Part shown: in pieces, positions 37,461 to 39,621 of the stretch
Layout of the letters: each line of letters starts with the position of its first letter
Position numbering within the stretch: the first letter of the stretch is position 1
From: Bacillota bacterium
GTDB lineage: Bacteria; Bacillota; Limnochordia; DUMW01
Length of the DNA stretch: 43,937 nucleotides
Assembly: GCA_012839765.1 (NCBI GenBank)
Contig: DUMW01000042.1
Location: 1 to 43,937, forward strand
Direction: 5' to 3'
The notes under the pieces: model-generated
Seen by the model: only the letters and a program-made list of their open reading frames with translations
What the model was told of the DNA's origin: nothing
Databases searched by the model: none
Position numbers and translations under genes: made by a program

Positions 37461-38201
37461 ATGAGATTGGGGAATTATCACAATCATACCGGTAATCTTG
37501 GTTTTTCCTATTGTGCCGATTCGGATCTCACTTTGGAATGGTATTTGGCTCAGGAGACGGAGTGGTCCCGTGTGGCCATTACGGATCACGGTTTTAACCT
37601 TGCCTTTCCAAATGAGATTGCCTGGGGTTTCAAATGGCACAAGGATCCTAGGTATTTTGAGGAGTATAGGGACTATAGACTGGAGAAGGTAGAGCGATAC
37701 TTGGAGATGCTATCCAAGCTGGATGGAGAATTCTTCCTGCCTGGAATCGAGATTGAGGTGACCAGTTGGGGAGATCTCACCATCGAAGAGCAGTACCTTC
37801 CCCATTTCCAGATCATACTAGGTGCAATTCATCACTTGTCGGGACAGACGGAAGAAGAGATTCTTGCTTCCTTTTGGCAGCAAATCAATGACCTGCTGCG
37901 CTATCCAGTGGATATTATTGCGCACCCCTTCCGGATCCTAGAGCGCAAACTCGGGGAGATTCCACTCCAGGTATTGGACAGGGTGGTGCAGCAAGTTACG
38001 GCGGCTGGCGTTGCACTGGAACTGAACTCTCACTATATTTGCTCTTGCGACGAATTGATGCTAAAACTTGTCTGTAAGTATGGTGGCAAGATAGCCATTG
38101 GGACCGATACGCATGCCAGGCGTGAATTGTTTGATGCGTCCTATCATTTGGGGCTGTTTGAACGACTAGGGATTGTTCAGGAGAATATTTTCGTTAAATA
38201 G
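37461..38201 (+). CDS. PHP domain phosphoesterase
   Basis: 246 residues. Metal-binding PHP motifs are visible: NYHNHTGN at the start, ITDHGF, GIEIEVTSW, HPFRI and the C-terminal GTDTHAR. The family includes histidinol phosphatases and DNA polymerase-associated phosphoesterases. ATG 37461 directly follows an in-frame TAG (37458-37460) and has no ribosome site. The good AGGAGG at 37411 points instead to GTG 37427, in another frame, or ATG 37431, in this frame but stopped by that TAG. A short leader ORF or a damaged start is possible. Confidence 0.82.
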   Translation: MRLGNYHNHTGNLGFSYCADSDLTLEWYLAQETEWSRVAITDHGFNLAFPNEIAWGFKWHKDPRYFEEYRDYRLEKVERYLEMLSKLDGEFFLPGIEIEVTSWGDLTIEEQYLPHFQIILGAIHHLSGQTEEEILASFWQQINDLLRYPVDIIAHPFRILERKLGEIPLQVLDRVVQQVTAAGVALELNSHYICSCDELMLKLVCKYGGKIAIGTDTHARRELFDASYHLGLFERLGIVQENIFVK

Positions 38202-38439
38202 TGCAGGTGGGAAACAGTGTTCTGGAAGGAGTTGGGCCGGAAGAGGAGAATATAGAACTATCCGTTTGGTTTTTCGCGTCGACCTCCAATAGCGCAAAAT
38301 CCCTGGGGGGTCGACGCGAATCAAGAAGGATGACAAAAACCATGAAAGGACTTAATCAAGCGGTTTTTCGACATCTGTCCATCTTAACGCATATCGAACA
38401 AGTGTTCTGGTTCTGTAGCAAAATCCCAGTGTAACGAGG
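38202..38439 (+). other. Probable CRISPR leader with inverted repeat
   Basis: This region lies directly before the first CRISPR repeat and contains no convincing gene. A perfect 12-bp inverted repeat, TTCGCGTCGACC (38273-38284) and GGTCGACGCGAA (38309-38320), sits about 120 nt upstream of that repeat. The position fits a CRISPR leader (inference). It supports reading the array on the + strand. Confidence 0.5.
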
Positions 38440-38535
38440 GTTTTGGATCTTCCTATCAGGGTTGGAAATTCCTCCATCAGGGGGATAGCCACGCGGGGCT
38501 CCTGCGTTTTGGATCTTCCTATCAGGGTTGGAAAC
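38440..38535 (+). CRISPR. CRISPR remnant: two repeats and one spacer
   Basis: Two identical 29-bp repeats at 38440-38468 and 38506-38534 start GTTTTGGATCTTCC and end CAGGGTTGGAAA, with C or T as a possible 30th base. They resemble the 30-nt repeats ending GGAATTGAAAC of thermophilic Clostridia. The single spacer, 38469-38505, is 37 nt and has no visible match in this window. No cas gene occurs in the window. The array ends abruptly against a group II intron fragment, so it is probably a relic. Confidence 0.85.
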
Positions 38536-38556
38536 GGAAATACCCGATCGTATAAT
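38528..38556 (+). promoter_or_regulatory. Promoter-like sequence across the CRISPR repeat end
   Basis: TTGGAA, inside the second CRISPR repeat at 38528-38533, and a perfect TATAAT at 38551-38556 are exactly 17 nt apart. It may be chance, but it would drive transcription into the intron remnant. Confidence 0.3.
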
Positions 38557-38576
38557 ACAATTGCTTTCCGTCGTTT

Positions 38577-39094
38577 TAGTTGACAGGCCATGGAAGCGGA
38601 AGTTTCTGGGGTTCAGCATGTACCACCGAAAGAGTGGGATGGGAATCAGGCTTGCCTCGGAGACCCTCAAACGGGCACAAAACCAAATACTGGAGATAAC
38701 CTCTCGGACCAAACCAGAAAGTATGACGGACCGTATTCGGAAGCTTAATTCCTATCTTAGCGGATGGCTAGGCTATTATGCGTTAGCCGAAACACCGAGC
38801 AAGTTCGAACTGCTCGAAGGCTGGATAAGACGAAGGCTAAGAATGTGTGTCTGGAAACGGAACCGCGTCCGAACCCGATACCGCGAATTGCGGGCCTTGG
38901 GTGTACCCGAATGGGCCGTACACAAACTGGCCAATGCCCGGAAAGGACACCGGCGCGTGTCTCAGATGCTAAGTATAGCCCTGGATAATCGATATTGGAG
39001 CAGCCAAGGGATGATGAGCTTCACCGAACGTTACCATCAAATTCGTCAAGCTTGGCAAACCGCCGTATACCGAACGGTACGTACGGTGGTGTGA
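38577..39094 (+). pseudogene. C-terminal part of a group II intron reverse transcriptase/maturase
   Basis: About 170 codons: DRPWKRKFLGFSMYHRKSG, the maturase (X) domain helices around MTDRIRKLNSYLSGWLGYYAL, and the DNA-binding end WIRRRLRMCVWK..RYRELRALGVPEW. The catalytic YADD domain and everything before it are absent. The open frame extends back to 38528 over the CRISPR repeat, but that part is not maturase sequence. It lies in the intron remnant and cannot be functional as a reverse transcriptase. Confidence 0.85.
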
Positions 39095-39128
39095 GAGGAC
39101 GGGGGCTTGCCGCCCCCTCCTACTCGAT
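38577..39128 (+). mobile_element. 5'-truncated group II intron (maturase end, domains V and VI)
   Basis: It contains the end of the intron-encoded maturase, then a domain V hairpin at 39060-39089 (CCGCCGTA/TACGGTGG outer stem, inner ACC-GAAC-GGT) and a domain VI hairpin at 39093-39125 whose GAG-AGGA arm pairs with TCCT-A-CTC, leaving A122 (position 39122) bulged as the branch-point adenosine. The intron would end in AT at 39127-39128. Domains I-IV and the reverse transcriptase half are missing, so it cannot splice on its own. The left break lies within about 40 nt of the second CRISPR repeat. Confidence 0.82.
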
Positions 39129-39153: not shown

Positions 39154-39621
39154 TCAGTCAACTTGAGTCGTCAGGAATATGGGCAGTCCCATCTGCTCAA
39201 TCTGGTCTATGAGTTCCTCAAGTTCATCCATATGGCGATCCTCGTCGTTGAGAATCTGAACGAGGATATCCCGTGTCGCATGATCGCCAACTTCAGCGGC
39301 AAGCGCAATAGCATCGTTGTAAGCCTTGATTGCCATCTCCTCGGCAGCCCGGTCAAACTCTAATTGTTGGGGAACGTTCTCACCAATGTGGATTTTGCTC
39401 AGGTTGCTCACGATTGGTTTCCCGCCAAGGAACAGAATTCTACCGATCAGTATTTCAGCATGCTTCATTTCCTGTATTGACCGCTTTTCAAAACCCTCGT
39501 GCAACTTGCCGTAACCCCAGTCCTCACACATCTCGGCATGTACAATGTACTGGTTGATGGCCGCAAGTTCGTCGGCTAGCAGAGCATTCAACGTCTCGAT
39601 AAGCTTTGGATCTCCCTTCAC
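39154..39621 (-). CDS. bfr: Bacterioferritin
   Basis: 155 residues with the same length and numbering as E. coli Bfr. The ferroxidase ligands Glu18, Glu51, His54, Glu94, Glu127 and His130 are all present, with Tyr25; the haem ligand Met52 is in EMKHAE. It forms 24-meric iron-storage cages and oxidises Fe(II) with oxygen or peroxide. The start is GTG 39621 with AAAGGAGGT 6 nt upstream. A good promoter lies about 136 nt upstream; no clear Fur or PerR box is seen. Its 3' end is 25 nt from the group II intron end. Confidence 0.96.
   Translation of the reverse strand: MKGDPKLIETLNALLADELAAINQYIVHAEMCEDWGYGKLHEGFEKRSIQEMKHAEILIGRILFLGGKPIVSNLSKIHIGENVPQQLEFDRAAEEMAIKAYNDAIALAAEVGDHATRDILVQILNDEDRHMDELEELIDQIEQMGLPIFLTTQVD

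Follow-up and report, generated by a model that had tools for sequence, protein, structure and literature searches.

A CRISPR leader and mini-array abutting a 5'-truncated group II intron in a draft Limnochordia genome

How does a pair of CRISPR repeats come to lie directly against part of a group II intron? The window, that is, the whole stretch of 43,937 nucleotides that was analyzed, carries such an arrangement. An initial annotation proposed that an intron had landed in or near an array, and that a deletion then removed the rest of the array and the 5' half of the intron to leave a scar. We find that the locus is a junction between two decayed elements. Both halves are of well-known kinds, and a search of open-access papers, limited in extent, turned up no earlier case of such a junction.

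Direct reading of the window finds two identical 29-mers, one at 38440 and the other at 38506, separated by 37 nt, exactly as first described. When they are read against the intact arrays of relatives, however, the unit becomes a 30-nt repeat with a 36-nt spacer, and the CRISPR part of the locus resolves into the following features.

38275..38439, + strand: CRISPR leader, recognized by homology to leaders in the same genome and in relatives of the same class, and overlooked in the initial annotation
38277..38316, + strand: leader hairpin of 40 nt (CGTCGACCTCC...GGGGGTCGACG), conserved in class relatives
38440..38469, + strand: CRISPR repeat 1, 30 nt, with final base T where relatives have C
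38470..38505, + strand: spacer 1, 36 nt
38506..38535, + strand: CRISPR repeat 2, 30 nt, with final base C
38536..38572, + strand: spacer 2, 37 nt, inside the 34-39 nt range of relatives' spacers
38573..38577, + strand: probable broken third repeat, GTTTT, the first 5 nt of the repeat, at a position that matches the array spacing

The repeat in the window reads GTTTTGGATCTTCCTATCAGGGTTGGAAA(C), and the 30-nt repeat of relatives reads GTTTGGGCTCTACCTATGAGGGATTGAAAC. With up to three mismatches allowed, the repeat pattern has five matches in the window's own genome, compared with none for the reversed control pattern. The repeats are identical and the spacers are unique and of like size (36 and 37 nt); the two-repeat array is far beyond chance, is also preceded by a leader, and is thereby confirmed. 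The single spacer initially recognized is real, but a second one follows it. Because GTTTT would occur at an acceptable spacing by chance with a probability of about 0.012, we regard 38573-38577 as likely, rather than certain, to be the start of a third repeat. The repeat pattern had no match in GTDB genome contigs and none in IMG/VR; as judged from these searches, this repeat variant is present in no other genome or viral contig among those searched. In exact matching against IMG/VR, spacer 1 had no match, either whole or as a 22-nt seed, and neither did a 22-nt stretch of spacer 2.

The leader connects this small array to a wider family. Together with the first repeat, it is 89% identical to C12:110-303 and 74% identical to C45:13037-13229, two loci on other contigs of the same genome. 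Found with the DNA preceding the array as the query, these leader copies each stand directly before one or more repeats. The window leader can also be aligned with the leaders of four relatives from the same class (G006, G069, G071 and G072). In these four, the hairpin is 82-85% identical, and 26 of its 40 columns are invariant across seven aligned leaders. It folds as DNA (z=-3.2) and stands about 150 nt before genuine arrays with sister repeats in G006, G069 and G071; the G072 contig ends within the first repeat after the hairpin. One stem position, compared by eye, changes from T-A (G071) through T-G (G006 and the window) to C-G (G069), which may be a small sign that pairing matters. The G071 copy lies on contig 66, where genes for Cas8b, Cas7b, Cas3b, Cas6b and Cas1b are followed by the leader and 22 repeats. 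Since the window leader adjoins its first repeat and its homologues head real arrays in relatives, one of them beside a type I-B cas operon, we assign 38275-38439 as a CRISPR leader of the type I-B family.

The hairpin (CGTCGACC...GGTCGACG) is kept across families of one bacterial class, and candidate roles are an integrase site, a host-factor site or an insulator. A comparison with plasmids gave no match. As a class-wide feature, the hairpin can serve as a marker for finding relics of this kind. Ordinary array finders usually require at least three repeats and so would miss them.

What remains of a CRISPR-Cas system around this array? The statement that the 44-kb window holds no cas genes is borne out: searches for Cas1, Cas6 and Cas7 had no match inside it, and PADLOC scans of 30 of its proteins found no cas protein. 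The PADLOC matches that did appear (LeoA/LeoBC, C3a214, mad3, AriA and LmuB) were partial or weak, and we judged them to be domains common to other families, not defense systems. Genome-wide searches covered Cas1, Cas6 and Cas7. No Cas1 was found in the 2.56 Mb of this genome, nor any Cas7 with PF05107, for which G071 was the positive control. PF01905, another Cas7 model, was wrong for this subtype, also missed the Cas7 of G071, and was replaced by PF05107. Of the Cas8b/Cas7b/Cas3 effector and the Cas1-Cas2 genes that would define type I-B, Cas1 and Cas7, the two sought across the genome, were not found.

Cas6 was found at the ends of contigs C72 and C99, which overlap by exactly 127 nt and when joined give one intact, solo cas6b (Cas6b E=6.5e-65). 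Directly after it lies a cas2 remnant that retains only the later part, from about profile positions 26-36 on, with best scores to generic Cas2 and Cas2c. The repeats that follow are degenerate and, by eye, type I-C-like. The entire arrangement, cas6b, 5'-truncated cas2 and three decayed type I-C-like repeats, occupies the last 1.2 kb or so of C99 joined to C72:1-760. This locus makes a second scar from CRISPR deletion in this genome. With no Cas1 or Cas7 found, and only cas6b from the I-B set, the window array is a relic of a I-B array family, not a shown working system.

A search of the rest of the genome for the same repeat, as well as for cas genes, had been suggested; the genome holds three more relics of the family. 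The C12 relic has two full repeats and a truncated third, that on C45 has a single decayed repeat, and contig C55 begins inside a repeat. At C55:1-25, a repeat variant (CTATGAGGG) is followed by a spacer-length stretch and then by a terminator-like hairpin; this is probably the distal end of an unassembled array. At C12:1-40, a divergent repeat-like sequence (GGATCTTCTCAAAAAGGGTTGAAAAC) stands at the contig start, about 70 nt before a second leader, so C12 possibly carries two arrays in tandem. Given that C55 starts in a repeat and that the genome is a draft, 95.9% complete, more array sequence, and perhaps cas genes, may be unassembled. With this reservation, two CRISPR subtypes are apparently in decay here.

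The second half of the junction, and the genes that flank the locus, are as follows.

38578..39128, + strand: group II intron reduced to its 3' part; homology to longer intron proteins starts at VDRPWKRKF, and domains V and VI are intact
38579..39058, + strand: C-terminal maturase fragment, with a GIIM domain at 38666-38896 (Pfam GIIM E=4e-18)
39058..39128, + strand: intron domains V and VI and the intron 3' end (Rfam RF00029, Intron_gpII, DV+DVI)
37461..38201, + strand: upstream flanking gene, an intact open reading frame for a PHP-domain protein (Pfam PHP E=2.5e-5, just under its cut-off)
39154..39621, - strand: downstream flanking gene, ferritin/bacterioferritin-like (Pfam Ferritin E=6e-39)

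The match of 39058-39128 to RF00029 scores 44.2 bits (E=3.6e-7; the gathering score is 40) and spans model positions 1-77 of 77; it had escaped a gathering scan of the whole window that used fast filters. Reading by eye places a probable branch-point A at 39122 in domain VI. These data uphold the initial identification of a group II intron 3' part after the repeats. Alignment to full-length relatives, also proposed at the outset, puts the start of homology at ...KSA/VDRPWKRKFLGF (that is, KSA/VDRPW), nucleotides 38578/38579, and plasmid relatives align from residue 3 of the maturase fragment. This start falls after the reverse transcriptase domain, inside the C-terminal part of the protein. 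The intron therefore has domains V and VI with its 3' end, and lacks its 5' end, domain I to most of domain IV, and the reverse transcriptase domain, all of which are needed for function. No RVT_1 domain was found anywhere in the genome, and the maturase had no match in IMG/VR.

Searching with the maturase C-terminus, a query that 5'-only fragments would escape, gave four intron copies in this genome. All four have the 3' end and domains V and VI, and three lack the 5' part: those in the window, C26 and C31. In an alignment of the four, the maturase stop is TGA in the other three copies and CAA at 39056 in the window copy, whose frame reads on to 39094. No site conservation is visible in the 3' flanks. 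The remaining copy (C112:8049-about 9200, minus strand) has an internal deletion that joins approximately protein residue 90 to the C-terminus, and its 5' RNA sequence and domains V and VI seem to be retained; from its sequence, it might be a splicing-competent intron without a working protein.

The locus thus runs from a leader through two repeats and two spacers to a probable third-repeat start, and the intron 3' part follows from the next base. Because GTTTT ends at 38577 and the intron starts at 38578, the two remnants abut without a spare base. As the initial annotation noted, neither part is complete. The array probably breaks off in a third repeat, at GTTTT, and the intron has no 5' part. 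Both a repeat and the maturase gene are interrupted at the join, and comparison with relatives gives no evident microhomology there. What follows the intron on its 3' side (from 39129) is not array sequence, so we rejected an insertion inside an array that otherwise stayed intact.

Our preferred explanation, to which we give a slightly better than even chance, is that a degenerate leader-proximal mini-array of a type I-B-like family was fused by deletion, at a point within its third repeat, to a group II intron lacking its 5' part. The intron would first have settled beyond the distal end of the array, before the ferritin gene. An illegitimate deletion, with no evident microhomology, would then have joined array to intron. 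The matching cas operon would have been lost, or nearly so, in this genome. Support for a deletion comes from C112, itself a deleted intron copy, and from a join inside both a repeat and the maturase gene with no evident microhomology. Larger forms of both parts, which the proposed scar presupposed, do exist elsewhere, in the 22-repeat array with its I-B cas operon in G071 and in the longer intron proteins. The proposal thus stands as to two incomplete, exactly abutting parts, but loss of a long array is possible and not required: the mini-arrays of C12 and G069 (the latter also two full repeats and a truncated third) likewise stop in a broken third repeat, so this array may already have been tiny. 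In G006:C75 (about 1.0 kb), the last repeat of an array breaks off after 16 nt, and a transposase-like open reading frame, recognized by eye, follows; it is another array end that borders a mobile element.

Those same sister mini-arrays also speak for an alternative without any large deletion, in which the intron, already 5'-truncated through incomplete reverse transcription, entered by retrotransposition where a very short array ended in a degenerate terminal repeat (GTTTT followed by ACGAAATAG...). All four intron copies keep domains V and VI and the 3' end, three of them without the 5' part, and 5'-truncated group II introns are known within integron cassette arrays, where incomplete reverse transcription has been suggested as the cause (PMC7923331). 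This count is weakened, however, by a query that could not recover 5'-only fragments; C112, with an internal deletion and kept 5' sequence, shows that deletions also occur; and the array must have ended at exactly GTTTT beforehand. We consider this course of events unlikely, though a serious contender, and modestly favor deletion over it. No other genome of its order was in the set compared, and no relative with an empty or ancestral site was among those available for comparison; family- and order-level searches returned only this genome.

It is improbable, in our estimation, that the array is instead a live satellite, still read and processed in trans, of a cas operon that is present but unassembled. 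This reading has in its favor two repeats that are identical over 29 nt, a well-conserved leader and an intact Cas6b, and both the C55 start and the draft state leave room for missing sequence. Yet 2.56 Mb yielded no Cas1 or Cas7, cas6b stands alone beside a truncated cas2, only one or two complete repeats follow each of the three leaders, and the single repeat of C45 has decayed. There is only a very slight chance that the mini-arrays of the window, C12 and C45 are kept with Cas6b for a nonimmune purpose, in which the leader would drive short repeat-spacer RNAs for Cas6b to process, one of them supplied with a structured 3' tail by the junction with domains V and VI. An artefact at 38577/38578 is the least probable explanation. 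The junction occurs in no independent genome, and a chimeric read there is possible, but the contig runs through it, with no assembly break at 38.54 kb, and the junction lies mid-contig. A misjoin is unlikely: the contig overlap of exactly 127 nt points to the word length of the assembler and suggests that joins need long exact identity, while the junction region shares no more than 25 nt of exact sequence with the other loci examined.

On the deletion reading, the locus probably no longer works. The searches found neither a Cas1 nor an effector Cas7 to make use of the array, and the intron is without its reverse transcriptase domain and its RNA from domain I through most of domain IV. Should the leader still be active, its transcript could be cut by the surviving Cas6b, but nothing known would use the product. 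For a bacterial order that has been poorly sampled, the locus provides a scar of CRISPR decay resolved to the base, within one genome where several arrays, two CRISPR subtypes and an intron family all appear to be decaying and where cas6b is the only intact cas gene found (among Cas1, Cas6 and Cas7 searched). It thereby records how immunity genes decay in a genome.

Among known systems, the type I-B system of G071 shares with the window a homologous leader hairpin, a sister 30-nt repeat and a similar spacer length, but it has genes for Cas8b, Cas7b, Cas3b, Cas6b and Cas1b and 22 repeats, which the window array does not. The CRISPR2 locus of Enterococcus faecalis is an orphan (cas-less) array, which like that of the window is short and has no adjacent cas genes. 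In the window's genome, by comparison, the loss is apparently genome-wide (no Cas1 or Cas7 found), and the array is cut inside a repeat with an intron fragment abutting. The term orphan CRISPR arrays is used in PMC4894674. The closest maturases found, with identities of about 50-61% over the fragment, belong to group II introns of Anoxybacillus, Cohnella and Fervidicola. Like the window's, they have no evident endonuclease domain, but they belong to longer intron proteins (in Fervidicola with a small internal gap) that keep the reverse transcriptase domain. The introns of integron arrays (PMC7923331) resemble ours in that the 3' part of an intron stands alone in or next to an array of repeated units; those introns neighbor attC cassettes, whereas the one in the window neighbors a CRISPR array.
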